Source: Rhodopseudomonas palustris (GTDB taxonomy: Bacteria > Pseudomonadota > Alphaproteobacteria > Rhizobiales > Xanthobacteraceae). Taken from it: 64,000 nucleotides of DNA. This document shows, in pieces, positions 37,198 to 52,062 of the stretch. The notes below the pieces were generated by a model that saw only the letters and a program-made list of their open reading frames with translations, searched no databases and had not been told where the DNA came from. Within the stretch, counting starts at the first letter, position 1. Every line of letters starts with the position of its first letter. Made by a program: the position numbers and the translations under genes. Location: the NCBI RefSeq assembly GCF_013415845.1, contig NZ_CP058907.1, positions 2,542,001 through 2,606,000 on the forward strand, read 5' to 3'.

Positions 37198-38442
37198 TCA
37201 GTTGCAGAGCACCTGAACGGTGAAGAGTTTGGCGAGATCGGCGATTGCCTCGGGCGCAAGCTCGCGTGTGCTCACCTTGCCGGTCGGGACCACACCGCTG
37301 GAATCGAGGAAGTTGGTTGCGATACCGGTCTTGATCGCAAAGTTGACGTTCTGCGGAATGTCCTTGGTCGCCGCCGCGATGTTCAAGGCATTGAGCTTCG
37401 AGACGATGACGCCGATGACATTGCCGTATTTGTCCAGCAGCGGACCGCCGCTGTTGCCCGGCTGAACCGGCGCCGAGATCTGAGCAAGCCGGGTATCATC
37501 TTCCATTCCCGTCGTCGCGGTGATCGCGCCGGCGGTGAAATTGCCGGAGGTCGACAGGATGCCGGTCAGCGGGAAGCCGAAGACGTAAACCGCTTCGCCG
37601 AGCCGAATCTGCGATCGCAGGCCCGGAATGGCAGCCGGTGACGACGCCGTCTTCAGGATCGCAAGATCGTTGGTCTTGTCCTTCGCGACGAGGGTAGCGC
37701 TCACGGCAGCCCCGCCTGGAGGCAGCACGTTGATGGTCGAACACTCGGCGATGACGTGGTGATTGGTCACGATGTGGCCGCTGTCCGAGACGTAGAAGCC
37801 AGTGCCTGAGCTCTTGGTCTGGCGTTTCGGCTTGGTGTCAGTCGAAGGTTCATCGCGGGTATCGCTCTGCGCCGTCATGAACGCCTTCTGGCACGACAAC
37901 ACCGCTTCGAGCGCGCGTCGCGAGCCATCCAACGACAGCGCTGCGACTCGGCGCCGATTGAGGAACACGCCGACACCGCCGGACTCGGCAAGCTCCACCA
38001 TGAACTCGGTCTTGAGGTTGCCCGAGAACACGCCCTTCTCATTGCTTCGCTCGAAGCCGAAGAACTCGCCGTTCCATCGGGTGCGACCCATGACGAGTTG
38101 CATGTCGTACTGGCCGTCGACCTCGACCGACGCCCAGCGCGGATTGGTGAAGGCGATGTAGGCGCTCGGCTTGTCGCCGGCGAAGCCGAACCAGACCGTC
38201 GTTCGATCCTGATAGGTCGCAGCGGCGAGGCAACCGCCAACGCTCTTGCTGAATCCGACGTCCCAGCCCGAGACCTTGCCGAATGACTTATCGATGTTGA
38301 GGTCGCCGCAGCGGGCCTCTGCTGCGCAGGCGATCGATCCGACAAACATCAATGCAGCGAGCGCCCGCGCGAGGAGGTCCTTCCGCGGAAGAGCTTTGCG
38401 GGGCGGGTGCACGAGCCGCACTGCGAATGTTGTGTGCTTCAT
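37198..38442 (-). CDS. Secreted trypsin-like serine protease with unknown N-terminal domain
   Basis: 414 residues from ATG 38442; GTG 38454 is possible. A signal peptide with core LARALAALMFVGSIACAAEA ends near 45. Residues about 45-200 form a domain I do not recognise, with CGDLNIDKSF and several Phe/Trp strands. Then the trypsin/HtrA-type fold: His in IVTNHHVIAEC (about 226), Asp in KTNDLAIL (about 257), Ser in QPGNSGGPL (about 329). No PDZ domain follows. The small exported gene 63 bases upstream is probably in the same operon. Confidence 0.85.
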   Translation of the reverse strand: MKHTTFAVRLVHPPRKALPRKDLLARALAALMFVGSIACAAEARCGDLNIDKSFGKVSGWDVGFSKSVGGCLAAATYQDRTTVWFGFAGDKPSAYIAFTNPRWASVEVDGQYDMQLVMGRTRWNGEFFGFERSNEKGVFSGNLKTEFMVELAESGGVGVFLNRRRVAALSLDGSRRALEAVLSCQKAFMTAQSDTRDEPSTDTKPKRQTKSSGTGFYVSDSGHIVTNHHVIAECSTINVLPPGGAAVSATLVAKDKTNDLAILKTASSPAAIPGLRSQIRLGEAVYVFGFPLTGILSTSGNFTAGAITATTGMEDDTRLAQISAPVQPGNSGGPLLDKYGNVIGVIVSKLNALNIAAATKDIPQNVNFAIKTGIATNFLDSSGVVPTGKVSTRELAPEAIADLAKLFTVQVLCN

Positions 38443-38505
38443 CGGCCTTCGCACTGGAAAATGGCTGCGCCTCTGGTGGAGGTGCCTTTGTCCGGCGGTG
38501 GACGC

Positions 38506-38826
38506 TTAGTCTCTGGCCGGACGTGTTTTCGAAGCGGCAACGCCGGCGAACGGGTCCGCCATCGATGCCTGTGACGGCGCCGGACGCGATCGGTGCGCAA
38601 CGTGCCGCCGGGGACGCGCAGACCGATAGACGCGCGGCTGTTGTTGCTGCGCGATGCCGTTGGCGATGATCGCTGCGGCGGCGACGCCAGCGAGCGCGCC
38701 GAACACGGCAGCGCCATCGCGCGCGACGGAGCGGGTTGGAAAAGAGATCACAGCGATCGCAACAGCTGCAGCCAGCAGAGCCGGCGAGACACGCAATGAC
38801 TTTTGGTCCAATGTTCTTTTCAGCAT
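38506..38826 (-). CDS. Small exported protein with a hydrophobic Gly/Ala segment
   Basis: 106 residues. Signal peptide: LLAAAVAIAVISFPTRSVARD (about 18-38). A second hydrophobic stretch AAVFGALAGVAAAAIIANGI (about 39-58) looks like a glycine-zipper or membrane anchor. A QQQQ tract and a basic Arg/Ser-rich tail follow. I recall similar short proteins in rhizobia but no function. It lies 63 bases before the serine protease gene on the same strand and could be its partner or substrate. Confidence 0.6.
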   Translation of the reverse strand: MLKRTLDQKSLRVSPALLAAAVAIAVISFPTRSVARDGAAVFGALAGVAAAAIIANGIAQQQQPRVYRSARPRRHVAHRSRPAPSQASMADPFAGVAASKTRPARD

Positions 38827-38874
38827 GACAGTCCCCAGATGCCCTGCCTTCGATTAGTAGAAAACGGGGTTGCA

Positions 38875-38893
38875 ACGGTCAAGCAATGACCGT
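38875..38893. repeat. Small perfect hairpin between aat and the exported protein gene
   Basis: ACGGTCA / TGACCGT arms with a 5-base loop. It lies 57 bases after the aat stop and 49 bases before the next gene's start, so it could be a terminator for aat or an operator for the protease operon. No U-run follows. Confidence 0.35.
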
Positions 38894-38949
38894 CATGCGA
38901 GCGGCGCGTGTTCGCGTCTTGAACAGTTTGCTGTGGGTACCAGGATGCG

Positions 38950-39627
38950 TTACGTCCGCGTGATGATCGCCAGCGCTTCGGCGCCGGTGACCGGGCGGTC
39001 GAGCGGCAGTGCTGCGAACGAGGCTTCTCCTTCGAGCGCGTCGTCGAGCAGCGAGCGATAGCGCAGCCGCGGCACTTCGATGGCGCCGAAGCTCTTCAGG
39101 TGATCGGTCACGAACTGCGTATCGAGCAGGGTGTAGCCGCCGGCGAGCAGGCGCGCGACCAAGTGGACCAGCGCCACCTTCGAAGCATCGCGGGCGCGGT
39201 GAAACATGCTCTCGCCGAAGAACGCCCGGCCGAGGCTGACGCCGTAGAGGCCGCCGGCGAGATCGCCGTCCTGCCAGACCTCCACGCTGTGGCAATGGCC
39301 GATGTCGTGCAGTCCGATATACAGCTCGCGAATCCTGCGGTTGATCCAGGTGTCGTCGCGCCCCGGCTGCGGCGCGGCGCAGCCGTCGATCACCGCCTTG
39401 AAGTCGCGATTGACGGTGACGGTGAAAGCGTCGGACCGCACGGTGCGGGCGAGGCGCGAGGACACGCGGAAGCCGCCGAGCGGAATGATGCCGCGCATGT
39501 CGGGCTCGACCCAGAACAGCGAGGGATCGTCGACGCTCTCGGCCATCGGGAAGATGCCACACGCATAGGCGCGCAGCAGCACGTCGGGCGTGATCTCGGA
39601 AGCGGCGGAGGAGTCGCGTGAGGCCAT
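38950..39627 (-). CDS. aat: Leucyl/phenylalanyl-tRNA-protein transferase
   Basis: 225 residues from ATG 39627. Aat signatures: [15 protein letters not shown] and [31 protein letters not shown], then [42 protein letters not shown] and [20 protein letters not shown]. It transfers Leu or Phe to N-terminal Arg/Lys of proteins, marking them for ClpS/ClpAP degradation (N-end rule). It lies 60 bases downstream of the antiporter gene on the same strand. Confidence 0.96.
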
Positions 39628-39687
39628 CCGCAAAGCATAGCACGACGGCGAAAGGGCGCGACCCTGTGGGCGATGGCGGGCCGCGGC

Positions 39688-40905
39688 TCAGCGCGGCAGG
39701 TCGGGATGCCAGCCGACCAGCAGCAGCATCGCAAAGAACGCGATGAAATAGGCGACGCCGACGTGCCAGCCGTGGCGCAGCCACATCACCACGGACTTTC
39801 CTTCCGGGAACATGTTGGTGATCGCGACGCCGGCCGAGGAGCCGAACCACATCATCGAGCCGCCGAAGCCGACCGCATAGGCCAGAAAGCCCCAATCGTA
39901 GCCGCCCTGTTTCAGCGCCAGCGCGGTGAGCGGGATGTTGTCGAAGCCGGCCGAGACGAAGCCCAGGCCGAGCGCGGTCTGCCAACTCGCGGCGGGCAGC
40001 TCTTCGACCGGCATCAGCGAGGCCGCCGTCACCAGCGCGAGCAGGAAGATCGTGCCCTTGAAGGTCGCGGGCATCAGCTCCCAATCCGGCCGGCGCAGCG
40101 GCGCGGTGATCAGGATCACCGCCCAGACCGTCAGGCCGAGAACCGGCGCGTGGTCGAGCAGCGCCGGGAATTTCATGTTCGCGGTGACGTTGGCCGCCAG
40201 TGCCGCGATCAGGATCGCCGCGACGATGCCGACCCGGACCCACTCGATCTGCAGGCCTTTCGGCGCGTTCTTCACGATCGGCGAAAACTTCTGCTGCTGG
40301 ATCGAGGCCGGCACGGCGAACAGCGCCAGGGCGATCACCGCCGCCACATAGGCTTCCAGCACGCTGAGCGGCGAGACGCCGGCGATCCACATCATCGTCG
40401 TGGTGGTGTCGCCGACCACGCTGCCGGAGCCGCCTGCGTTCGAGGCGGCGACGATCGCGGCGAGGTAACCGATGTGGACCCGGCCGCGGAACACGTGCCG
40501 CGCCACCATGCCGCCGATCAGCGCGGCGGCGATGTTGTCGAGGAAGCTCGACAGCACGAACACCAGCCCGAGCAGCACCACCGGGCCTTTCCAGTCGTCC
40601 GGGAGCAGTGCCGGCATCTCGTCGGGAATGCCGCTCTTTTCGAAATGCGCCGACAGCAGCGCGAAGCCCATCAGCAGCAGGAACAGGTTCGCCAGCGTGA
40701 CCCATTCGTGCTGCATGTGCAGCGCCAAGCCGGACAGGCCGACGCCGGTCTTGAAGCCGGCGAACGCCAGCTTGTAGCCGACCACGGTTACCAGGCCGGC
40801 CAGCGCGATCAGTAAGGTGTGGCGGTGGAAGATCGCGACCCCGACCAGGGTGGCGGCGAACAGGATGAAATCGAGCGGGATGCCGAAGATCAGGATCGGG
40901 GTCAC
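39688..40905 (-). CDS. NhaD/ArsB-superfamily ion antiporter or carrier
   Basis: 405 residues from GTG 40905 (GAGG 6 bases upstream); the frame is open further up without homology. About eleven hydrophobic segments. The pair SSFLDNIAAALIGGMVARHVF and SAGFDNIPLTALALKQGGYDW are the twin DN-containing half-sites of the ion transporter superfamily, and AASNAGGSGSVVGDTTTTMMWIAGV is the conserved loop. This fits NhaD-type Na+/H+ antiporters or citrate/arsenite carriers. The ion is not decided by sequence. Confidence 0.8.
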   Translation of the reverse strand: MTPILIFGIPLDFILFAATLVGVAIFHRHTLLIALAGLVTVVGYKLAFAGFKTGVGLSGLALHMQHEWVTLANLFLLLMGFALLSAHFEKSGIPDEMPALLPDDWKGPVVLLGLVFVLSSFLDNIAAALIGGMVARHVFRGRVHIGYLAAIVAASNAGGSGSVVGDTTTTMMWIAGVSPLSVLEAYVAAVIALALFAVPASIQQQKFSPIVKNAPKGLQIEWVRVGIVAAILIAALAANVTANMKFPALLDHAPVLGLTVWAVILITAPLRRPDWELMPATFKGTIFLLALVTAASLMPVEELPAASWQTALGLGFVSAGFDNIPLTALALKQGGYDWGFLAYAVGFGGSMMWFGSSAGVAITNMFPEGKSVVMWLRHGWHVGVAYFIAFFAMLLLVGWHPDLPR

Positions 40906-41146
40906 AGCTGCCTCGCGCCGGACACGACGGGCTGCGCCGCGGCGGCGCGCCACCGAGATACGAACGGCAACATATTGCCGCTGAGGGCGTGAACGTTCAA
41001 AGGCGCATCTTCCCGAATTGATCGGCCGATCCGGTTGAGCCGGCGGCGCGGCGGAAGCTGCCCGAGGTGCGACAGAATGGCAAGGCGGCAATGGTCTTAG
41101 GGCACCGGCCGCCAAAGCAATATGTTCACCGGCAACGTTTCGGCCG

Positions 41147-41818
41147 TCAGGTTTTGACCGCGAGCCAGATCCAATGCCGCGAGCCGGTGCGCTTGCCGAC
41201 CGCACGTACCGGGACTTCGTTGACGACGAAATCGCTGCGCCGCAGCCGCTTGGTGAAGCTGTCGTCGGGGCCCGACGACCACACCGCCAGCACACCGCCG
41301 CCGCGCAATGCCGCGCGGGCATCGGACAGGCCGCGGCTGTCGTACAGCTGGTCGTTGGCGGGACGCGACAGTCCTTCGGGGCCGTTGTCGACGTCGAGCA
41401 GGATCGCGTCGTAGCGCCCGGCGCCGGCGCGGATCAGCTCACCGACGTCGCGCTGCAGGATGCTGACGCGGGGATCGGTCAGGCTGTCGCCGTATAGCCC
41501 GGCCATCTCGCCGCGGCCCCAGTCGATCACCTCGGGGACCAGTTCGGCGACCTCGATCGTGGCGTCGGTGCCGAACACTTTCAACGCGGCGCGCAGCGTG
41601 AAGCCCATGCCGAGTCCGCCGATCAGGACGCGCGGACGAGGGCGGCCGGCGAGCTTCTGACAGGCGAGGGTGGCGAGCGCCTCCTCGGAGCCGCCGAGCC
41701 GGCTGTTCATCAGTTCGTTGGCGTCGAGCCGGATCGAGAATTCCTCGCCGCGCCGCATCAGCCGCAATTCGCCGCCGCCGGGGACTTTCGCGGTGGCCAA
41801 CTGAATCCAGGGAAGCAC
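41147..41818 (-). CDS. Spermidine synthase-like class I methyltransferase-fold protein
   Basis: 223 residues from GTG 41818. It has the Rossmann-like SAM-binding motif VLIGGLGMGFTLRAAL (about 84-99), the acidic strand-2 end IEVAELVPEVIDWG, LQRDVGELI, and YDAILLDVDNGPEGLS where spermidine synthase has its catalytic Asp. A SWHIWLAVKT-like tail ends the fold. It may be a polyamine aminopropyltransferase homologue or a methyltransferase. Size is below the 280-300 residues of true spermidine synthase. The gene stands alone, downstream of the phosphorelay genes, 132 bases away. Confidence 0.72.
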   Translation of the reverse strand: MLPWIQLATAKVPGGGELRLMRRGEEFSIRLDANELMNSRLGGSEEALATLACQKLAGRPRPRVLIGGLGMGFTLRAALKVFGTDATIEVAELVPEVIDWGRGEMAGLYGDSLTDPRVSILQRDVGELIRAGAGRYDAILLDVDNGPEGLSRPANDQLYDSRGLSDARAALRGGGVLAVWSSGPDDSFTKRLRRSDFVVNEVPVRAVGKRTGSRHWIWLAVKT

Positions 41819-41950
41819 AACAATCGCCTTTGGTCGCTAAGAGGTCGCCGGCAGAAAAGGGGAGGACCGGCGGTTCGTCCGGCCGGAGAACCCGCGGCTT
41901 GTGTAGTGCGCAGGCGGGCCGGTGTCACCCTGCGGCGGAGCAGGACCAGA

Positions 41951-43042
41951 TCAGGGAGTCGCCGGCTCCGGCGCCGCTGCGGCGGTCGCGTTGGCGCGGC
42001 GAAACCGCAGCACCATGCGGGTGCCGGAATGGTTGGGGTCGCGCTCGACATCGGCTTCGAGCTTGGCCGCCATCGCGCTGACGATGCGCTGGCCCATGCC
42101 GGTCGATTGCGGATTGGCCTTGACGTTGAGGCCGACGCCTTCGTCGGCGATCACCAGTTCGAGGTCATCGCCGTCGGCCTTCAGCTCGACATGGATCGGC
42201 CCCTTGCCCTCCGGATAGGCGTATTTGACGGCGTTCATCACCAGCTCATTGACGATGATGCCGATCGCCACCGCGCGGTCCGGATCGGTTTCGACCGGCT
42301 GCGCCGACAGCGTCAGCCGCGACATCCGGTTGCCCTCGGCCGAGCGCCTCAGATCCTCGAGCAGCGACTCGAGATACTGGTTGAGCATCACGCTCTTGAG
42401 GTCGTGCGAGGTGTAGAGCCGGCGGTGTACCTGCGCCACCGCGGCGACGCGGCCCATCGCATTGGTCAGCGCCGCCTTGACCTCGTCCTGCTTGCTGGAC
42501 GACGCCTGCAGATGCAGCAGCGAAGCGATGATCTGCAGCGAATTGCCGACGCGGTGGTTGACCTCACGGAGCAGCATTTCGCGCTCGGCGGCGAGCGCGG
42601 CATAGCGGTCGCGCGAGGCACGCACTTCGGCTTCGGCGTCGTCGCGCGCCTTGCGTACCATCGCCTGCTTCAACGCCTGATCGGCAGCGACCTGCAGCAG
42701 CGGCACGAACTCGCCCTGCGTGTCCTTGACCAGATAATCGTCGGCGCCGGCTTTCAGCGCGGTGACGGCGATCTTGGAGTCCTGCGAGGCGGTGACGAAC
42801 ACCACCGGCGGCGGATCCGGGATCGCCTGGATCTGCTCCAGCGTCTCCAGCCCGTCGAGGCCGGGCATGTACTGGTCGAGCGCGATCACGTCGATGCCGC
42901 CCTGGCGCAACCGCTCCAGGCCGGCTTCGCCGCTCAGCACGTGTTCGACGCAGAATCCCTGCCGCTGCAGGCCGCGCGACACGAGGCGGCCGAGCGCCTC
43001 GTCGTCGTCGATGTAGAGCAGGGTCGGCTTGGCGTCTGTCAT
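41951..43042 (-). CDS. Response regulator receiver fused to HisKA_2-type histidine kinase
   Basis: 363 residues. Receiver domain 1-125 (acidic IDDDE, phospho-acceptor D56 in IALDQYMPGLDG, K106 in YLVKD). A coiled region about 125-155 is followed by a HisKA_2 dimer/phosphotransfer segment with H163 in REVNHRVGNSLQI. A HATPase domain (about 230-345) has GIIVNELVMNAVKYA and DEGVGLN. It is the last gene of a translationally coupled trio (ATGA overlap). It would be driven by phosphorylation of its receiver, making it an output or relay component. HisKA_2 kinases often feed the PhyR stress pathway. Confidence 0.88.
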   Translation of the reverse strand: MTDAKPTLLYIDDDEALGRLVSRGLQRQGFCVEHVLSGEAGLERLRQGGIDVIALDQYMPGLDGLETLEQIQAIPDPPPVVFVTASQDSKIAVTALKAGADDYLVKDTQGEFVPLLQVAADQALKQAMVRKARDDAEAEVRASRDRYAALAAEREMLLREVNHRVGNSLQIIASLLHLQASSSKQDEVKAALTNAMGRVAAVAQVHRRLYTSHDLKSVMLNQYLESLLEDLRRSAEGNRMSRLTLSAQPVETDPDRAVAIGIIVNELVMNAVKYAYPEGKGPIHVELKADGDDLELVIADEGVGLNVKANPQSTGMGQRIVSAMAAKLEADVERDPNHSGTRMVLRFRRANATAAAAPEPATP

Positions 43043-43482
43043 GGAGCGTCGGGCTGGGGGACCTGGATGACCGAAAAGAACAGGCCGAGTTGGCGGATCG
43101 CGTTGGCGAAGCTTTCGTAGTTCACCGGCTTGGTGATGTAGACGTTGCAGCCGAGCTCGTAACAGCGCTTGATCTCATGCGCGTCGTCGGTCGTCGTCAG
43201 CACCACCACCGGGGTGGCCTTGAGATGATCGTTCTCCTTGATCCGCCGCAGGATGTCGATGCCGCTGGCATCGGGCAGATTGAGGTCGAGCAGCACCAGT
43301 AGGGCACGATGCTGGTGTTCGACGCCGGTGCCATCGCTGCCGAACAGATAATTCAGCGCGGCTGTCCCGGAGGTGAACGGGATGATCTCGTTGTTGACGC
43401 CCGAACGGCGGATGTTCCGCTCAATCAGACGGGCATGACCCTCGTCGTCCTCGATCATGATGATGGTGACAGGGTTACTCAT
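43039..43482 (-). CDS. Single-domain response regulator (Rcp1-like)
   Basis: 147 residues from ATG 43482, overlapping the sensor kinase gene by 4 bases and the hybrid kinase gene by 4. Only a receiver domain: acidic E11 D12 D13, phospho-acceptor D66 in LLVLLDLNLPDASG, T96 and K118 in YITKPVNYESFANAIRQLG. The insert LFGSDGTGVEHQHR between helix 2 and strand 3 and the C-terminal FFSVIQVPQ are typical of Rcp1-like regulators that pair with phytochrome-type kinases. It lacks an output domain, so it is a phosphate shuttle between its two neighbours. Confidence 0.92.
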   Translation of the reverse strand: MSNPVTIIMIEDDEGHARLIERNIRRSGVNNEIIPFTSGTAALNYLFGSDGTGVEHQHRALLVLLDLNLPDASGIDILRRIKENDHLKATPVVVLTTTDDAHEIKRCYELGCNVYITKPVNYESFANAIRQLGLFFSVIQVPQPDAP

Positions 43483-45011
43483 GCGCGCTGTTCCTGGTTC
43501 TTGTTTGCCGTCCACTTGGCCGGCAGGGTGATGGTGAAGGTCGAGCCTTCGCCGAGCGCGGATGACACCGACATGGTGCCGCCCAGGCGTCGGACCAGCG
43601 CTCGCACATGGGCGAGGCCGATCCCTTGGCCGGGCCGATCCTGTGTACCGGCGCGGCGGAAAAGATCAAAGATTCTCTGGTGGTCCTTGGGATCGATCCC
43701 CCGGCCGTTGTCGGCGATCTCGAAGATCACGAAGCCGAGCTTCTGGCGGCCGCGGATCACGATGTCGCCCGGTACGCCATCCTTGAGATATTTCAGGGCG
43801 TTATCGATGAGATTTGAGAAGATCTGTTCAAGTGCGAGGCGGTCGCTGACGATCTCCGGCAAGGGCTCGATGCGGATCTGGGCGTTGGCTTCGGCGGCCT
43901 GGTGCGCGACGGTGGAGACGATGTTCTCGATCAACTCGCGGGTCTCGATCCGCACCGGCTGAAATTGGCGCCGGCCTTCGCGCGTCAGGTTCAGGATGGC
44001 GCTGATCAGGCGGTCCATCTTGCCGATCGAGGATTTGATGAAGCCGAGCGCCTCGGTGAAATCTTCGGAGAGCTGGCGGTCGGCGGGCTCCAGTTCCGCC
44101 TCGCCATCGCCGTCGGCATTGGCGGCGCTCTGCTTGCCGGTGACTTCGCGGCTCAGCGTCCCGATCCGGCGGAAGATGTCGCTGCGCAGCTCTTCCAGCT
44201 CGCTGGTGAAGCCCATGATGTTGACCAGCGGCGAGCGCAGATCGTGGCTGACGATGTAGGCGAAGCGCTGGATCTCCTCGTTGGCCTCGCGCAGGTCGGC
44301 GGTCCGCTCCTGCACGGCGGATTCCAGGTTCAGATTGTTCTCGCGCAGCTGATTTTCGGCTTCGTCGCGCGCCCGCGCCGAGCGTCGCACCAGGAAGATC
44401 GACAGGCCGGCAAGCACCAGAACCAATCCCGAACCGGTGGTGGTGATGATGGTGGCCAGTGCCTGGCTGCGGTCGGCCTCGGTGGTGCGCTCGGAAAACA
44501 GCCGGTTTTCCTCCTGGCGCATTGCCGTCAGCGACGTGGTGAGGGTGTCCATGGCACGGCGGCCGTCGGTGTCGCGCAGCAATTGCCGGGCGTCCTCGAT
44601 CCGGCCCTGCTGCGCCAGCGCGATCACCTGGCGAAACCGTTCGATGCGTGAGTTGGCGGAGGCGATCGCCTGGTCGATGAACGGGACCTGCGCGGTATTG
44701 TCGGCGACGAAATCCCGTAGCTTCTTCAGCCGCGGCACCACATCGGACGCCGCCTCCTCGAACTGGGCGATCAAATCGTCCTGCTGGGTCAGGACGTAGC
44801 CGCGTTCGGCGCTTTCGGCGCGGCGGAGCTGCAGCTGGGCCAGCGCGATCTGGTTTTGGACTTCGAGGGTGTGGGCGACCCAGGCGTTGTCCTCGCGCGC
44901 CTTCTGCAGCCAGTACACCGACGCCAGGCTGATCGCGACCAGCACGGCGAACGACAGCGACAGCAGTGTGACCTGGGCAAGCGAGCGCTTGCGCGCGGAT
45001 TCAGGAGTCAC
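43479..45011 (-). CDS. CHASE3-domain membrane sensor histidine kinase
   Basis: 510 residues from GTG 45011. TM1 at about 12-34, periplasmic CHASE3 domain about 40-180 (RRAESAERGYVLTQQDDL is the CHASE3 core), TM2 about 185-208, then a coiled coil (EAENQLRENNLNLESAVQER). HisKA has H256 in YIVSHDLRSPLVNIMGF. There is a charged insert of about 60 residues. HATPase motifs are IFSNLIDNALKYL, DNGRGIDPKD and GQGIGLAHV. No PAS domain is present. It is first in the operon; a perfect EcfG-type promoter is 76 bases upstream. The signal is unknown; CHASE3 kinases respond to various stresses. Confidence 0.9.
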   Translation of the reverse strand: MTPESARKRSLAQVTLLSLSFAVLVAISLASVYWLQKAREDNAWVAHTLEVQNQIALAQLQLRRAESAERGYVLTQQDDLIAQFEEAASDVVPRLKKLRDFVADNTAQVPFIDQAIASANSRIERFRQVIALAQQGRIEDARQLLRDTDGRRAMDTLTTSLTAMRQEENRLFSERTTEADRSQALATIITTTGSGLVLVLAGLSIFLVRRSARARDEAENQLRENNLNLESAVQERTADLREANEEIQRFAYIVSHDLRSPLVNIMGFTSELEELRSDIFRRIGTLSREVTGKQSAANADGDGEAELEPADRQLSEDFTEALGFIKSSIGKMDRLISAILNLTREGRRQFQPVRIETRELIENIVSTVAHQAAEANAQIRIEPLPEIVSDRLALEQIFSNLIDNALKYLKDGVPGDIVIRGRQKLGFVIFEIADNGRGIDPKDHQRIFDLFRRAGTQDRPGQGIGLAHVRALVRRLGGTMSVSSALGEGSTFTITLPAKWTANKNQEQRA

Positions 45012-45086
45012 CGCGCGCCTCCAGCACGAACGAAATCAGGCAAGCCATCCCCCAGGCGTCGCAAGGCAGAACTCAGAACGCTTTCT

Positions 45087-45111
45087 AACGTCGGTGAAAC
45101 GGAAAGGTTCC
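45087..45111 (-). promoter_or_regulatory. EcfG (general stress response) promoter of the phosphorelay operon
   Basis: On the minus strand GGAAC, 16 bases, CGTT, an exact match to the alphaproteobacterial EcfG consensus GGAAC-N16/17-CGTT. The -10 end lies 75 bases upstream of the sensor kinase GTG. It faces the operon and lies between it and accC. No other promoter-like motif was evident in this gap. Confidence 0.7.
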
Positions 45112-45198
45112 CGAGGGACGAGGGGATTTTGGAGGAGTGGTCGCGGCGGAAGGAGCGAGCTCGCGTCGAAAGCCAACCCGTTGCAACGCGTTAGGCGG

Positions 45199-46551
45199 CT
45201 AACCTGCAGGATCGCCTGAAGCCAGATACTGCTCCAGCCAATGGATGTGGTAGTCGCCGTCGATGATCGACGGCTCACGCACCAGGGCGCGGAACAGCGG
45301 CAGCGTGGTCTCGATGCCGTCCACCACCATCTCGTCGAGCGCGCGGCGCAGCCGCATCAGGCACTCGCCGCGGGTCTTGCCGTGGACGATCAGCTTGCCG
45401 ACCAGCGAGTCGTAATAGGGCGGGATCGTGTAGCCCTGATACACCGCTGAATCGATCCGGATGCCGAGGCCGCCGGGTGGATGATAGCGCGAGATCTTGC
45501 CGGGCGACGGCCGGAAGGTCACCGGGTTCTCGGCGTTGACCCGGCACTCGATGGCATGACCGTTGAGGGTGATCTCGTCCTGCGTCACCGGCAGGTCGCC
45601 GCCGGCGGCAATCCGGATCTGCTCCAGCACCAGATCGATGCCGGTGATCATCTCGGTCACCGGATGCTCGACCTGGATGCGGGTGTTCATTTCGATGAAA
45701 TAGAACTCGCCGTCCTCGTACAGGAACTCGATCGTCCCGACGCCGAGATACTGCATGTCCTGCATCGCCTTGGCGCAGATCCCGCCGATCCGGGCGCGCG
45801 CCTCCGGGCTGATCACCGGCGAGGGGCTTTCCTCCCACACCTTCTGATGCCGGCGCTGCAGCGAGCAGTCGCGCTCGCCGAGATGGATCGCACCGCCGCG
45901 GCCGTCACCGAGCACCTGGATTTCGATGTGGCGCGGCTTCTGCAGATACTTTTCGAGATACACCGACGCGTCGCCGAACGCGGCCTTGGCCTCGTTGCCG
46001 GCGGTGGAGATCGCCAGCGCCAGGTCGTCGGCGGTGTGTGCGACCTTCATGCCGCGGCCGCCGCCGCCCGCTGCGGCTTTGACCAGCACCGGGAAGCCGA
46101 TTTCCTGGGCGATCGCCATCGCATCGTCGTCTGGGCCGACCCCGCCGTCGGAGCCCGGGACGACCGGAATGCCGAGCCTCTTGGCGGTCTTCTTGGCCTC
46201 GATCTTGTCGCCCATCAGCCGGATGTGTTCGGCCTTCGGTCCGATGAAGTGAAGATTGTGGTCGGAGAGGATTTCGGCGAAGCGGGCGTTCTCGGACAGG
46301 AAGCCGTAGCCCGGATGCACCGCATCGGCGCCGGTGATCTCGCAGGCGGCGAGCAGCGCCGGCACGTTGAGGTAGCTGTCCTTGGACGGCGGCGGGCCGA
46401 TGCACACGCTCTCGTCGGCGAGGCGGACGTGCATCGCGTCGGCGTCCGCGGTGGAGTGGACCGCGACCGTGGCGATGCCGAGCTCCTTGCACGCGCGCAG
46501 CACGCGCAGGGCGATCTCGCCGCGATTAGCTATCAGGATTTTATCGAACAT
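45199..46551 (-). CDS. accC: Acetyl-CoA carboxylase biotin carboxylase subunit
   Basis: 450 residues, the usual length. N-terminal [43 protein letters not shown]-grasp glycine loop [13 protein letters not shown], and the catalytic region [17 protein letters not shown] and [14 protein letters not shown] are all intact. It carboxylates biotin on AccB using bicarbonate and ATP, the first step of fatty acid synthesis. It follows accB by 117 bases in the aroQ-accB-accC order. Confidence 0.98.
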
Positions 46552-46668
46552 CGGCTTAACCGCGCTGTGAGGCCAAAGAGGCGAAGGGCGAGTAGCGAAG
46601 GTGGAATGGAAAGAGAGGCAGCTAAGCGGCTTGTTTCGGCTCGCTGCTTGCTGCCCGCCACTCGCTTG

Positions 46669-47163
46669 TTACTCGATCACGACCAGCGGTTCGCCGAACT
46701 CGACCGGCTGGCCGTCTTCGACGAGGATCTGGGTGACGACGCCGGCCTTCGGCGAAGGAATCTGGTTCATGGTCTTCATCGCCTCGACGATGAACAGCGT
46801 CTCGCCGACCGACACCCGGCTGCCGACATCGATGAACGGCTTGGCGCCCGGCTCCGGCGCCCAGTACACGGTGCCGACCATCGGCGAGGTGACCACGCCC
46901 GGATGTTTGGCGAGATCGACCGACGCGGTGTCTTTCGCGGCGGCGCCACCTGCGGCGGGCGCCGGCGCATAGGCAGCCGGCACCGCGGCGGCGATGCTGA
47001 CGTTACGAGCGACGCGCACGCGCAAACCGGCTCGTTCGATCTCGATCTCGGTCAGGTTGGTCTCATCCAGCAGCACCGCGAGTTCGCGGATCAGGCTGCT
47101 GTCGTCGGTCGCCGGGGCGGTGGTCGGCTCGGCGGCGGTTTTCTCTGCAGGCTGGCGGGCCAT
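46669..47163 (-). CDS. accB: Acetyl-CoA carboxylase biotin carboxyl carrier protein
   Basis: 164 residues. The N-terminal dimerising part contains [31 protein letters not shown], an Ala/Pro-rich linker follows (about 65-88), and the biotinyl domain (about 90-164) carries biotin on the lysine of [11 protein letters not shown]. It carries CO2 from AccC to the carboxyltransferase. The gene starts 38 bases after aroQ, so they share an operon. Confidence 0.97.
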
Positions 47164-47201
47164 GGTGTGTCGATCCAGATGTCTTGAGTGAACGGGCGGG
47201 C

Positions 47202-47657
47202 TCAGGCCGTGGCGCTGGCGCCGAGTTTGGCGGCGAGGCCGGTGATGGCCAGGCGATAGCCGTCGATGCCGAAGCCGCAGAGGCTGGCGAAGGCGGCCTT
47301 CGCGATGAAGGAGTGGTGACGAAAGTCCTCACGCGCAAATACGTTGGAAACATGGACTTCCACCGTCGGAATCTGCACGCCGACCAGAGCGTCGTGCAGG
47401 GCGATCGAGGTGTGGGTATAGCCGCCGGCATTGATCACGAGGCCAGCCACCTTTTCGCTGCGCGCCTGGTGAATCCAGTCGATCAGCTGGCCTTCGTGGT
47501 TGGACTGACGGCACACGGCGACCAGACCGAAACCGGCGGCGGTCTCGGCGCACAGCTTCTCGACATCGGCCAAGGTGGCGCGACCGTAGATTTCCGGCTC
47601 ACGGGTCCCGAGCAGATTCAAGTTCGGGCCGTTCAGCACGTAAATCGTCTGAGCCAT
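47202..47657 (-). CDS. aroQ: Type II 3-dehydroquinate dehydratase
   Basis: 151 residues from ATG 47657. Signatures are [20 protein letters not shown] with the catalytic Arg and Tyr, [35 protein letters not shown], and [18 protein letters not shown] with the active-site His. It dehydrates 3-dehydroquinate in the shikimate pathway. First gene of the aroQ-accB-accC operon. The pairing with accBC is common in alphaproteobacteria and other bacteria. Confidence 0.97.
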
Positions 47658-47906
47658 CGAAAATTCCGGCAATTTTTGCGAATCTGATCCAGCCGAGCGG
47701 GACAACCCGCCGCACGGCCTGTCGGAATCCGGCGAAATTCACCTGATCGCGGGCGTTATAGGTAACCTCGGGGCTGAGGGGAAGCCTGAACAGGCTCGAA
47801 CAGGGGATGAAATCCCTGATGCTTTGGACGAGTTCGCCTGCGCAACCGACAGGAATTGTTCGCAATCAAGGCTCGACAAGGTGCCGGGGCACCCATGCGG
47901 AATGCA

Positions 47907-47934
47907 CAGGGGACGGCCGGGTGACCGCCCCCTG
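47907..47934 (-). terminator. Hairpin after the DUF1236 gene
   Basis: CAGGGG / CCCCTG outer arms with one mismatch and inner CGG/CCG, 17 bases after the stop at 47951. No clear U-run follows on the minus strand; probable weak terminator. Confidence 0.45.
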
Positions 47935-47950
47935 GATCGGAGTGCCTTGA

Positions 47951-48622
47951 TCAGATGTCGAGGACGGCGACGATCTCCAGCGTGCGCGGATTCACCACCA
48001 CGATCTCGTCGCGCACTATGAAGAACTCATAGCCGCGCCAATCCGGATAGATCGTCACGATGTCGGTGGGAAGTGGATGGAAGTGGACCTCGCGCGGCAC
48101 GCGCGTGCCGACCGAGATCGAGAAGTTGACGTTCGTCTGGGGCTCGATGTGCTGGTTCTTGATCACCGTGGTGATCTTGGTGCGCTGCTCGGTCGAGAGC
48201 TGCGCGCGAGCGCCGGCCTGGCCGGTGGTGGTCGACGAGCGATCGCTATCCGCACCGCGTTGCTTGCTGCGGTCATGGTCGCGATCATTGTCGGCATTGC
48301 GGTTGCCGCTGCGTTCGTTGCGATCTTCGGCCTTCATTTTGGAGCGGTCGCGGTCATGATCGCTGACACCCTTGGTGGCGTCGTTGGCGCTGCGATCCAT
48401 CGCCGGAACTTCGCGCGAGGTGCCAGACGGGGATTCAGAGCGCTGCATCTGCGAACCGCCGGCACCGCTCGGCCCGGGTGCGGATTGTCCCACCGACGGC
48501 GAGGACGGGGCGGCGCCGCTACTGCCGCTGGAACTACTGGAGGACGGCGACTGCGCATTGGCAACGGCTCCGCCAGCGATCAGAGCGGCGGCGGCGACTG
48601 ACAGCAACAAGCGATGGTTCAT
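47951..48622 (-). CDS. DUF1236 exported protein
   Basis: 223 residues. The signal peptide (LLLSVAAAALIAGGAVANAQ) is followed by a Ser/Gly/Pro-rich spacer, then a long charged section rich in Asp/Arg (about 80-135, including DRDRSKMKAEDRNERSGNR), then the DUF1236 domain (about 140-223): LSTEQRTKITTVI, NVNFSISVGTRVPREVHFHPLP and IVTIYPDWRGYEFFIVRDEIVVVNPRTLEIVAVL. Function unknown; common in Bradyrhizobiaceae. A weak EcfG-like promoter precedes it. Confidence 0.88.
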   Translation of the reverse strand: MNHRLLLSVAAAALIAGGAVANAQSPSSSSSSGSSGAAPSSPSVGQSAPGPSGAGGSQMQRSESPSGTSREVPAMDRSANDATKGVSDHDRDRSKMKAEDRNERSGNRNADNDRDHDRSKQRGADSDRSSTTTGQAGARAQLSTEQRTKITTVIKNQHIEPQTNVNFSISVGTRVPREVHFHPLPTDIVTIYPDWRGYEFFIVRDEIVVVNPRTLEIVAVLDI

Positions 48623-48652
48623 TGGTGCTCTCCCTGTGCCTGCCCGTGCCTC

Positions 48653-48677
48653 AACTTCATCCCTGCAGCACCGTTCC
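48653..48677 (-). promoter_or_regulatory. Possible EcfG-type promoter (one mismatch) for the DUF1236 gene
   Basis: On the minus strand GGAAC, 16 bases, AGTT versus consensus CGTT. It lies 30 bases upstream of the start codon. One mismatch, so it may be chance. Confidence 0.3.
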
Positions 48678-48888
48678 CGCGCGGGCGATGAGTTCCGTAC
48701 GCTGACGTTCCCGGAGTTTTGTTTTGTCGAACCGTCACGTTCGGACTAGTCTGACGGTCGTGAGGCTCCGTGCGACCCAATGATCCGGTCGCGATTGCCC
48801 GACCCATCCGCTCGCGGCCCAGCAGCCTGAACCAGCCCAAGCGAATTCAGGCGTGCGCCTCCGCCGCGAGCTTCCAACCGGAGGTGTC

Positions 48889-49101
48889 ATGGCTCGCTAC
48901 ATCGTGCGATTTATGAAGGGCATCCTCGGCGAGAACGGTCGTCACGAGGAAGTCTGCCAGGGCTTGCTGGAAGTCGATGCCGAAACCAGCGATGGCGCAA
49001 TCGAGCTCGCCAAGCAGCGGTTCTGTGAACAGGAGCGGCTGCCGGAATGGTCGCTACACGCCGACCGCGTCGACGTCGCCGAAACCGAGTTTCCGTCCTA
49101 G
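48889..49101 (+). CDS. Small hypothetical protein
   Basis: 70 residues from ATG 48889, with a strong GGAGG ribosome binding site 4 bases upstream; earlier in-frame codons have none. Sequence features: an N-terminal strand MARYIVRFMKGILGENGRHEEVC, a helix GAIELAKQRFCEQERLPEWSLH, and an acidic end. It looks like a compact single-domain protein, possibly alpha/beta, without signal or membrane segment. Family not recognised. Confidence 0.7.
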   Translation: MARYIVRFMKGILGENGRHEEVCQGLLEVDAETSDGAIELAKQRFCEQERLPEWSLHADRVDVAETEFPS

Positions 49102-49441
49102 ACCCTTCTGTAACTCGCATCCGAACACGATGTGCGCGGGCCGGCTGCCGATGCCCGCGCAAAACTTGTCACGCCGCCGGGGAGGTGGCGGGAGACCGTC
49201 ATTCCTGCGTCAGGATGGCACGGCATCGTACGGTTGCCTGACTAATCTCTACAGTGTAGAAATTGGCTACCGTCAGCGGCTGACAGCGTCGCGAGAGCTT
49301 CTCACGGTGTTGTCGCGACACGTTTCGCGACCCTCAATCAGGCTCTTGGCCGGACCGCCGGTCTTGCACCCGTCTGCATGGATGCGGACGCGCGTGTCCG
49401 AGGGCTAACTCGCGACGCGAGGCTCGGACTGCGAGCGAACC
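49102..49441. other. Intergenic region with a hairpin and a TetR-like palindrome
   Basis: About 340 bases. After the small gene comes a hairpin TGCGCGGGC / GCCCGCGCA (49133-49161) without a U-run. Further on lies the 13-base palindrome TCTACAGTGTAGA (49248-49260), 181 bases before the CDF-like gene. No convincing protein-coding frame was found. Confidence 0.5.
49248..49260. promoter_or_regulatory. Palindrome resembling a TetR-type operator
   Basis: TCTACA-G-TGTAGA, perfectly symmetric around one base. It lies upstream of the CDF-like/TetR operon (49442-51075), the natural target of the operon's own TetR protein. Binding is inferred. Confidence 0.4.
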
Positions 49442-50395
49442 ATGAGCGGACTGCTCTCTATTTTTGATTTGTCAGACGAACGCGGCGTGTTGAGAACCTC
49501 GATCGCCGTGACCTTCGTGATCTCGTTCCTCGGGATCGGCTTCGGCCTGTTCTCGGGATCGTTCTCGATCGTGTTCGATGGGGTGTATTCCCTGATCGAT
49601 GCGGGGATGAGCCTGCTGTCGCTGATCGTGGTCAACCTGATCACGTCCTACGCGGTGGCGGATCATCTGTCGCGCAAGCTCAGGGAACGCTTTTCGTTCG
49701 GCCTCTGGCACCTCGAGCCGATGGTGCTCGGGCTGAACGGAATCTTGCTGATCAGTGCGGCGCTCTACGCGCTGGTCACGGCCATCGGCAGCCTGCTGAG
49801 CGGCGGGCGTGATCTGGAATTCGGTTCGGCGCTGATCTACGCAGCCGTCACGGTGATCGCCTGCGCGGGCATCGCGGCCGTGGAATGGCGGGCCAATCGC
49901 AAGATTGGATCCGAATTCCTTCGCCTCGACGTGCGCGGTTGGATCATGTCGGCCGGCATCAGCGCCGCGCTGCTGATCGCCTTCATGATCGGCCTGGCGG
50001 TGCAGGGGACGTCATGGCAGTGGATTTCGCCCTACATCGATCCGGCGGTTCTGGCGGCGGTGTGCGTGCTCATCATTCCTCTTCCGGTCTCGACGGTGCG
50101 GCAGGCGCTGGCCGACATCTTTCTGGTCACCCCGGTCGATCTGAAGAAGCACCTGGACACGGTGGCAGCGGCGTTCGTCGCCAAGCACGGCTTCGTCTCG
50201 TATCGTGCCTACGTGGCGCGGGTCGGACGATCGAAGGAGATCGAGCTCTACTTCATCGTTCCTGCCGATGCGCCTGCGCGCACGATCGGCGAGTGGGACA
50301 TGTTGCGGGACGAGATCGGAGATCTGGTCGGCGACGACGGACCGAACCGTTGGCTGACCGTCGTTTTCACGGGTGATCCTGAATGGGCCGAATGA
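49442..50395 (+). CDS. CDF-family cation efflux-like protein lacking the canonical metal site
   Basis: 317 residues with about five to six membrane segments (20-40, 52-70, 95-120, 128-148, 167-190, 200-215) and a soluble C-terminal domain. TM2 reads GSFSIVFDGVYSLIDAGMS. Compared with E. coli FieF, the first site aspartate (D45) is Tyr49 and the second (D49) is D53; another Asp lies three residues earlier (D46). TM5 has LDVRGWIMS, so H153 and D157 of FieF correspond to Gly166 and Ser170. It may move a different ion, or act otherwise. A TetR regulator overlaps its end. Confidence 0.8.
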   Translation: MSGLLSIFDLSDERGVLRTSIAVTFVISFLGIGFGLFSGSFSIVFDGVYSLIDAGMSLLSLIVVNLITSYAVADHLSRKLRERFSFGLWHLEPMVLGLNGILLISAALYALVTAIGSLLSGGRDLEFGSALIYAAVTVIACAGIAAVEWRANRKIGSEFLRLDVRGWIMSAGISAALLIAFMIGLAVQGTSWQWISPYIDPAVLAAVCVLIIPLPVSTVRQALADIFLVTPVDLKKHLDTVAAAFVAKHGFVSYRAYVARVGRSKEIELYFIVPADAPARTIGEWDMLRDEIGDLVGDDGPNRWLTVVFTGDPEWAE

Positions 50396-51075
50396 CGTCG
50401 ACTGCAGATGCGAAGTCGAACACCAAGATCCGCGCGGTTTCCGGCCCGCGCGGTCTTGCGAAGCATGAGATCGTCGAAACGGCCGTGAGCCTGATGGAAG
50501 AGCTGGGAGAGGCGGCCTTCAGCGTGCGCAAACTCGGCGACAGAGTCGGCTGCGATCCGATGGCGATCCTCTATCACTTCAAGAACAAGGACGGCATGTA
50601 TCGCGCGATGGCCGATGCGCTGGTGGCGAAGCTGTCGCCGGTCGGCAACGATCTGACTTGGCAGGATCGGCTCCGCACCCACGCGCGCGATCATCGCGCG
50701 CTGGCGCTCCGATATCCCAACACGTTTCCGCTGCTGCAGAGATTTCTCAACACCGGCGTTGCGGACTTCCCCCATATCGAAATGGTTCACCGCGCGCTGG
50801 CCGATGCAGGTGTGTGCGATGCGGACGCATCTGCCGTTTGCCTCGCCTGGTACGCCGGCGTGATCGGTCTGTGCACGGCGGAGATCAGCGGGCTGGTCAG
50901 GCCAGCTCGCGAGTCCGAAGTCGCCGAAATGGAGGAGTTGCCGTCTGCCGAGTTTCCGGTGCTGAGGAAGCTGGCTCGCTCGTATCTGGCCGTCGAAACG
51001 GAAACCGTCTTCGAAATCGCCAACGAGCTGTTTATCGAAGGACTATGCAGCCGCTCGGACCGCAGGTCGGACTGA
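50383..51075 (+). CDS. TetR-family transcriptional regulator
   Basis: 230 residues from ATG 50383; ATG 50392 overlaps the preceding stop as ATGA and is an equally good start. Helix-turn-helix near 25-75: KHEIVETAVSLMEELGEAAFSVRKLGDRVGCDPMAILYHFKNKDGMYRAM. The rest is an all-helical ligand and dimer domain with a TetR_C-like PNTFPLLQRFLNTG. It overlaps the CDF-like gene by 13 bases, so the transporter and regulator are made together and the regulator likely represses the operon. Confidence 0.88.
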   Translation: MGRMTSTADAKSNTKIRAVSGPRGLAKHEIVETAVSLMEELGEAAFSVRKLGDRVGCDPMAILYHFKNKDGMYRAMADALVAKLSPVGNDLTWQDRLRTHARDHRALALRYPNTFPLLQRFLNTGVADFPHIEMVHRALADAGVCDADASAVCLAWYAGVIGLCTAEISGLVRPARESEVAEMEELPSAEFPVLRKLARSYLAVETETVFEIANELFIEGLCSRSDRRSD

Positions 51076-51101
51076 AACGCGCCTCGTCGTCGTTGGGCTA
51101 G

Positions 51102-51136
51102 ATCGCCAGCGCCGGCGACACACGGCGACTGGCGAT
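51102..51136. terminator. Shared hairpin between convergent TetR and DsbA-type genes
   Basis: ATCGCCAGCGCCG / CGGCG-A-CTGGCGAT, a 13-pair stem with one bulged base and an 8-base loop. It lies 26 bases after the TetR stop and 23 before the DsbA-type stop. No U-run in either direction; a two-way terminator of modest strength. Confidence 0.5.
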
Positions 51137-51159
51137 GCTAACTCAGGCGTCGATCGCGC

Positions 51160-51927
51160 TCAGCACTTGTCCTTGCCGCAGCGCGCGGTGTTGATTTTCT
51201 GGCGCAGCGTGTCGAGGCCGACCGCGCCGACCACCACCTGCTTGCCGATCACATAGCTCGGCGTGCCGTTCATGCCCATCGACTCCGCGAGCTTGAAGCT
51301 TTCTTCGATCGTGGCGCGCACTTCCGGGCTGTTCATGTCCTTTTCGATCTTGGCGGGGTCGAGGCCGGCGTCCTTCGCGGCTGCGAGCGCGCGCGCCTTG
51401 TCGGCCTGCCCGCGGCCGCCGAGCAGCTTCTGGTGGAAGTCGAGATACTTCTTGCCGGTCGGGTCCTGCATCCGCACGGCGATTGCGACCTGAGCGGCTT
51501 CGACGGAGGGCGGGCCGAGCACCGGGAATTCCTTCAGAACGACCTTCAGGTTCGGATCGTCCTTCATCAGCTCCATCATGTCGGTCATCGCGCGTTTGCA
51601 GTAACCGCAATTGTAGTCGAAGAACTCGACCATGGTGACGTCGCCGTTCTTGTTGCCGACCGTCACGCCGCGCGGCGAATTGTAGATGATGTCGGCGTTG
51701 TCCTTGATCGCCTGCTGATGCTTTTCGGCCTGCGCCGCCGCCTGGCGCTTGCCGAGCTCTTCCGAGGCTTCTTCGAGCACCTCGGGATGCGACACCAGAT
51801 ATTCCTTGATGATCGTTTCGATCTGGCTCCGCTGCTCGTCGGAGAACTTCTGCGCCGAGGCGACGGCCGGCGCGCCAACGATGGCGAGCGCGAGCAGGGC
51901 TGTGGCGAGCGGGCGGAACGACAGCAT
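51160..51927 (-). CDS. DsbA-family thiol:disulfide oxidoreductase
   Basis: 255 residues. The signal peptide (LATALLALAIVGAPAVASAQ) is cut near 26, followed by a helical N-terminal part (EQRSQIETIIKEYLVSHPEVLEEASEELGKRQ), as in ScsC/Com1-type proteins that oligomerise. The thioredoxin-fold domain has the CGYC active site at 107-110, and the cis-Pro region reads GTPSYVIG. It oxidises or isomerises disulfides in the periplasm. It belongs to the family, not necessarily E. coli DsbA itself. Confidence 0.92.
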   Translation of the reverse strand: MLSFRPLATALLALAIVGAPAVASAQKFSDEQRSQIETIIKEYLVSHPEVLEEASEELGKRQAAAQAEKHQQAIKDNADIIYNSPRGVTVGNKNGDVTMVEFFDYNCGYCKRAMTDMMELMKDDPNLKVVLKEFPVLGPPSVEAAQVAIAVRMQDPTGKKYLDFHQKLLGGRGQADKARALAAAKDAGLDPAKIEKDMNSPEVRATIEESFKLAESMGMNGTPSYVIGKQVVVGAVGLDTLRQKINTARCGKDKC

Positions 51928-52062
51928 AGGCGGATCCCTTCGGCGGGTCAGGTCGTGGAAAAGACGCGTGGATTCGGACGTTTCATAGCGCTTTTCCCCG
52001 GCAAATACGCGGTTTTTGTGAACACGATCCGGTCAGACAGGGCCTGAGGCCGGTGCGACGCA

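Follow-up and report, generated by a model that had tools for sequence, protein, structure and literature searches.

The TcsA–TcrA–FsrR relay has been described for the acid induction of lpiA in Sinorhizobium (Ensifer) medicae WSM419 (PMC4674904; this and the other papers cited here are represented by passages of their text). Relays of the general stress response (GSR) run through SdrG/PhyT and MrrA/PhyK (PMC5898713; PMC5964349), and PhyK itself has been found to act as a phosphotransferase (PMC5964349). In LvrB of Leptospira, phosphorylation of the receiver (Rec) domain switches the kinase on, and the effector is an anti-sigma factor (PMC13269768). The promoter motif of EcfG1 in R. etli is GGAAC-N16-CGTT (PMC3892343). 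The locus analyzed here lies in a stretch of 64,000 nucleotides of the Rhodopseudomonas palustris genome (the window), in which an identical motif precedes genes for a CHASE3 sensor kinase, a lone receiver, and a receiver–HisKA_2 kinase. Judged by gene order and protein identity, these three genes are homologous to those of the TcsA–TcrA–FsrR relay, and the motif is very probably a promoter for the general-stress sigma factor EcfG. The best explanation of the whole locus, and a likely one, is a general-stress version of that relay, which would feed PhyR and be induced by EcfG. The elements are as follows:

45199..46551, minus strand: accC (biotin carboxylase), the conserved upstream neighbor that frames the promoter gap, as judged by synteny in relatives
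45087..45111, minus strand: very probable EcfG-type promoter, with −35 GGAAC at 45107–45111, N16, and −10 CGTT at 45087–45090; exact in 66/74 close relatives
43479..45011, minus strand: CHASE3 sensor histidine kinase (TcsA-type), GTG start; Pfam CHASE3, HisKA and HATPase_c; 43.5% identical to TcsA
43039..43482, minus strand: lone receiver (TcrA-type, Rcp1-like); Pfam Response_reg; 72% identical to TcrA
41951..43042, minus strand: receiver–HisKA_2 histidine kinase (FsrR-type), the last kinase; Pfam Response_reg, HisKA_2 and HATPase_c; 54% identical to FsrR

The promoter is the sole exact GGAAC-N16-CGTT of the window (GGAACCTTTCCGTTTCACCGACGTT). It sits in the 187-base gap between accC and the CHASE3 kinase, and 75 bases separate CGTT from the GTG start codon at 45011; both the site and its distance from the gene are as a preliminary description of this DNA had given them. 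That description had put the chance occurrence of such a motif at once in several windows, but the motif is commoner: shuffling the window leaves an expectation of 0.40 exact N16 sites, with at least one site in 33 of 100 shuffles. Across the 5.32-Mb genome, 48 exact N16 sites were counted vs. 53 for the reversed control, and 27 N17 sites vs. 32. Genome-wide counting was rejected as evidence, since the reversed control is equally frequent. On its own the motif carries no weight, whereas its position does. A terminator scan found no terminator-like site between accC and the operon, so some read-through from accC is possible; a sigma-70 promoter scan found nothing.

The weight of position becomes apparent among close relatives. 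All promoter counts for these rest on the best 80 of 245 loci carrying the last kinase, which come mostly from Rhodopseudomonas, Bradyrhizobium, Tardiphaga, Nitrobacter, and Afipia, together with some metagenome bins. Relatives share the arrangement accC, gap, CHASE3 kinase, receiver, and last kinase as far as their contigs extend. A readable gap after accC was available in 74 of the 80. The six omitted loci are L034, L059, and L066, where the contig begins inside the gene; L039, with no CHASE3 gene in the stretch; L051, where the contig end cuts the gap; and L072, where the CHASE3 match runs from residue 177 onward only, although an exact EcfG site is nevertheless present there. An exact GGAAC-N16/17-CGTT stands in the gap of 66 of the 74 relatives (67/75 with the window included), at −123 to −80 from the start codon. 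In the remaining eight the site has a single mismatch and lies at −92 to −82 in seven and at −109 in one. Disappearance of the motif from close relatives, which had been named as grounds for giving up the reading, was looked for and not seen. In 300 dinucleotide shuffles of the 75 gaps, the mean number of exact sites was 0.19 and the maximum 2.

The conserved sites are not a by-product of near-identical sequences. Of the 57 rows with N16 spacing, 49 were left after dropping those alike at ≥75% of the 57 columns. The nine motif bases are invariant in the exact rows through the very selection of those rows, but spacer and flanks are little conserved: only two positions exceed 1 bit, the one following GGAAC (mostly C) and the one preceding CGTT (mostly G). 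Over the 918,637 bases of the 74 loci there are 117 exact sites, namely 66 at this position, 44 in a second peak, and 7 scattered, vs. 37 matches for the reversed control, whose fullest 150-base bin holds 10. The EcfG promoter reading rests on this conservation and on the presence in the genome of a phyR–nepR–ecfG locus with a single full EcfG. NepR (by Pfam), PhyR (NCBIfam, 367.9 bits against a cut-off of 240), and EcfG were located at 4.625 Mb. EcfG was assigned because it lies behind nepR and no other protein gives a full match, the next extracytoplasmic function (ECF) sigma factor being at most 34% identical, and the phyR–nepR gap holds one-mismatch EcfG sites in both directions. The preliminary description's promoter call is therefore supported by conservation of the motif around a free spacer.

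The three genes look like a single translationally coupled operon, because both junctions overlap as ATGA (CHASE3 stop with receiver start, and receiver stop with last-kinase start) and 4-base overlaps recur in relatives at 78/79 and 72/80 junctions. The overlap with the CHASE3 stop also makes ATG 43482, rather than 43515, the likely start of the receiver. Pfam domains agree with the make-up proposed earlier for the three proteins, and the HisKA_2 domain (PF07568) of the last kinase scores 83.6 bits vs. a gathering cut-off of 22.3. The best PDB match of the lone receiver by sequence is 3heb, with Rcp1-type receivers among the next. Residues needed for a relay appear intact: the phospho-His is unchanged in 115 aligned CHASE3 kinases and in 122 last kinases, the Asp of the lone receiver is kept in 118/119 (one gap), that of the last kinase's receiver in 121/122 (one Glu), and the ATP-binding residues are nearly invariant across homologues. 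Of the two acidic residues before the latter Asp, the first is changed in 7/122 and the second in 2/122. In the R. palustris proteins, the phosphoacceptors are His256 in the CHASE3 kinase, Asp77 in the lone receiver (counting from 43515), and Asp56 and His163 in the last kinase. A mechanism controlled by the Rec domain needs a receiver joined to the DHp domain by one long helix, and a moderate-quality AlphaFold model of the last kinase (mean pLDDT 72, pTM 0.49) has a receiver, such a helix running into DHp, and an ATPase domain. A spermidine-synthase-like gene just downstream (41147–41818, minus strand) was considered as a fourth member of the operon and rejected, since it stands beside the operon in only 12 of 81 stretches, those of the window and of 11 relatives.

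A plasmid search with the last-kinase protein led to S. medicae, where the match is annotated as FsrR and its gene is preceded by those of TcsA and TcrA and followed by lpiA. The two systems share the three-gene order and the identities listed above, but differ in their surroundings. The R. palustris operon has its very probable EcfG promoter, whereas tcsA has no EcfG-like site (≤1 mismatch) within the 556 bases before it. A sigma-54 dependent regulator gene lies near the S. medicae triad; in the R. palustris stretch searched (38001–52000), neither an EbpA-like gene nor lpiA was found. Among all 122 stretches searched at E ≤ 1e-15, an EbpA-like gene occurs in two (L179 and L182) and lpiA in none. 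A comparison of rhizobia states, in the passage available, that OR191 and species other than E. medicae lack the FsrR system (PMC9048898), and one E. meliloti strain has been noted to carry fsrR by transfer (PMC5613336). By sequence comparison, homologues of the triad are clearly broader than E. medicae and extend to many Alphaproteobacteria. Among 30 stretches from more distant members of the order, 29 carry the sensor kinase, receiver, and last kinase consecutively (L137 and L144 match the first gene in its kinase part only, and L146 has the last kinase only). In the class sample, the triad is in a row in 8 of 11 stretches; L178, L185, and L186 have no CHASE3 kinase in front and are excluded from the eight. 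Triads also occur on plasmids of Azospirillum, Sphingomonas, and Mesorhizobium. In the phylum sample, the last kinase was found in 29 of 398 genomes (E ≤ 1e-50), all of the same class.

The link of this HisKA_2 kinase to PhyR, presumed in the preliminary description, is supported by three comparative observations: genomic linkage, co-occurrence with NepR, and the best score for PhyK. Linkage, defined as nepR or phyR/ecfG within ≤10 kb of an FsrR-type kinase, was scored in an order sample of 36 genomes with the kinase at E ≤ 1e-60 and a class sample of 12 at E ≤ 1e-50. It was found in 8/36 and 3/12, respectively, or 11 of 47 distinct genomes vs. 0.22 expected by chance for an assumed genome size of 4.3 Mb. 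Six families are represented among the linked genomes, a single family accounting for five of the 11. Four genomes of one family have the triad immediately behind ecfG; in a different family, the triad is followed downstream by ecfG and phyR. Mapped on a 56-row tree, linkage requires 5 changes, and this tree is compatible with either an ancestral or a repeated linkage to phyR. In one genome of the class sample (G458, L186), a relative of the last kinase adjoins phyR and ecfG, and neither the CHASE3 kinase nor the lone receiver accompanies it. In that genome, ecfG and phyR each have exact EcfG sites next to them. L183 (G212), a genome whose NepR matches are elsewhere, has a PhyR-like gene (35% identical) some 2 kb beyond its triad; this gene was excluded from the linkage count.

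NepR (E ≤ 1e-3) co-occurs with the kinase in both samples: in the order, 34/36 genomes with the kinase have it vs. 81/163 without, and in the class 10/12 vs. 38/277, the P values for both comparisons ignoring phylogeny. Two genomes of the order with the kinase and no NepR match (G073 and G139) have phyR and ecfG beside the triad. The best NCBIfam match of the last kinase is PhyK, over the transmitter only, at 115.6 bits; the next kinase in the genome scores 84.2. The scan covered seven of the genome's eight HisKA_2 kinases, five of which had no match at 1e-5; the eighth is a 131-residue frame. Among the seven, the last kinase has, on this score, the most PhyK-like transmitter. The 131-residue frame (L092, G000:C1:3055782-3055931) has a HisKA_2 stretch resembling the triad's last kinase and is perhaps a remnant. 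A literature search found no paper tying a TcsA–TcrA–FsrR-type relay to PhyR, although it covered open-licence papers only and subscription papers may list the genes.

In the mechanism proposed here, the membrane CHASE3 kinase would phosphorylate the lone receiver, the last kinase's receiver domain, or both, and this would switch on the PhyK-like HisKA_2 transmitter. That transmitter would most likely phosphorylate PhyR, and PhyR~P would then bind NepR and free EcfG. PhyR is, on present evidence, the more probable output of the relay. EcfG would in turn transcribe the operon from 45087–45111, so that one of the systems sensing stress would itself increase under stress, with positive feedback, or priming to one class of signal, as the outcome. 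Conservation of the promoter in close relatives makes it probable that the general stress response induces a sensing system of its own. The promoter, the operon, the intact catalytic residues, and the repeated genomic tie to phyR–nepR–ecfG are supported by comparison among genomes; the order of phosphotransfer, the PhyR target, the sign of the feedback, and the signal are inferred. The order is drawn by analogy with LvrB and with the SdrG/PhyT and MrrA/PhyK relays. LvrB, likened by description only, has the same Rec-DHp-CA architecture, but belongs to another organism and has other partner proteins. PhyK of Caulobacter and the Pak kinases of Sphingomonas share the HisKA_2 transmitter with the last kinase, whereas the latter has an N-terminal receiver and scores far short of the PhyK cut-off. 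Placed between kinases in a GSR relay, a lone receiver would have the role of the FATGUY receivers SdrG and MrrA, although the triad's receiver is Rcp1-like and without the FATGUY (PFxFATG) motif. Its identity as a FATGUY single-domain receiver was accordingly rejected. A back-translated FATGUY pattern has no match in the window and two sites elsewhere in the genome. One of these is in the C-terminal receiver of a phytochrome-type HisKA_2 kinase (G000:C1:1077617; L094, L163), and a light-linked GSR hub may sit in that one protein.

Several observations weigh against a PhyR-directed, EcfG-induced relay. The S. medicae relay presumably acts through RpoN and EbpA, and not through PhyR; work by Tian in 2017 reportedly concerns the recruitment of RpoN and an enhancer-binding protein by a multi-step phosphorelay. 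The EcfG promoter is, as far as sequence can tell, mostly missing outside the close relatives. Within 350 bases upstream of 29 distant loci, an exact site occurs once (L156, at −345) and one-mismatch sites in three more, vs. 0 exact and 1 one-mismatch site in the reversed control; the eight triads of the class sample have 0 exact and 2 one-mismatch sites. The expectation that the motif would be kept at orthologous operons therefore held for close relatives and mostly failed for distant triads (1/29 and 0/8 exact), as it does before tcsA of S. medicae. No linkage within 10 kb is seen in 36 of the 47 genomes with the kinase, and the NepR comparisons carry the phylogenetic limit given above. The relay is not required for the GSR, because a genome of the same family (G077) has NepR and no match to the kinase. 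The last kinase is not PhyK, since it misses by far the 750-bit cut-off of the equivalog model (NF051872). In addition, the S. medicae homologue drives lpiA–acvB (PMC4674904), and EcfG also drives negative regulators, such as NepR2 of Sphingomonas melonis (PMC6599016).

Part of this evidence fits an output arm, in which EcfG induces the operon and the relay ends on another response regulator with no feedback on PhyR, so that cells under stress gain an additional sensor for acid or envelope signals. EbpA of S. medicae, which we take to be an NtrC-type activator, would be an example of such an end regulator. The acid circuit served by the S. medicae relay (PMC4674904), with its sigma-54 dependent regulator gene nearby, speaks for such an arm, and nine matches to that regulator (E ≤ 1e-30) occur in the R. 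palustris genome, where an EbpA-like gene may lie outside 38001–52000. These NtrC-type matches are, however, 34–45% identical with no clear orthologue, too generic to decide, and EbpA-like genes and lpiA are all but missing from the stretches searched, where the recurrent linkage is instead to phyR–nepR–ecfG. An output arm, although the chief alternative, is thus rather unlikely, and feedback is favored over it.

It is less likely still that the relay, once induced, closes the response by draining PhyR of phosphate or by serving as a PhyR phosphatase. The induction of NepR2 by EcfG in S. melonis (PMC6599016) is a precedent for such negative feedback, but ATP-binding boxes and phosphoacceptors intact in nearly all homologues would be more than a pure sink needs. 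Moreover, R. palustris TIE-1 already has a named PhyP-type protein (PMC5898713), and in this genome a HisKA_2 frame of 603 residues (L097) adjoins ecfG. Least probable, and hardly credible, is a chance or otherwise constrained motif, with the operon read through from accBC or transcribed from another promoter. The expected number of sites per window, the lack of a genome-wide excess, and the failure to find a terminator-like site between accC and the operon all count in its favor, yet 66 exact sites among 74 relatives stand against 0.19 expected, and in the exact rows only two flanking positions besides the motif pass 1 bit. A relay that feeds PhyR and is induced by EcfG remains the likely explanation.

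The second peak of exact sites in the relatives belongs to a neighboring gene about 3.7 kb upstream. In the window it corresponds to an imperfect site:

48653..48677, minus strand: imperfect EcfG-like site, GGAAC-N16-AGTT, ahead of a DUF1236 gene (47951–48622)

At about the same relative place, 43 of the 74 relatives have an exact site (44 sites), and not all stretches reach there. The DUF1236 gene is a second likely target of EcfG.

The input to PhyR in Bradyrhizobium, Rhodopseudomonas, and their kin is little known; in the passages available of one study, only a PhyP-type protein is named for R. palustris (PMC5898713). For these bacteria, the operon and its conserved promoter predict self-induction under stress. 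Tentatively, the triad may be an old and widespread input relay of the alphaproteobacterial GSR, a third wiring beside the direct Pak kinases and the SdrG/MrrA–PhyT/PhyK relays. It would be tied to EcfG either by adjoining phyR–nepR–ecfG or, in Rhodopseudomonas, Bradyrhizobium, and kin, by having gained its own EcfG promoter; in that case, S. medicae would have derived its acid circuit by rewiring the relay to RpoN. Homologues of the FsrR relay occur across many Alphaproteobacteria, where the older role of the relay may have been in the general stress response.
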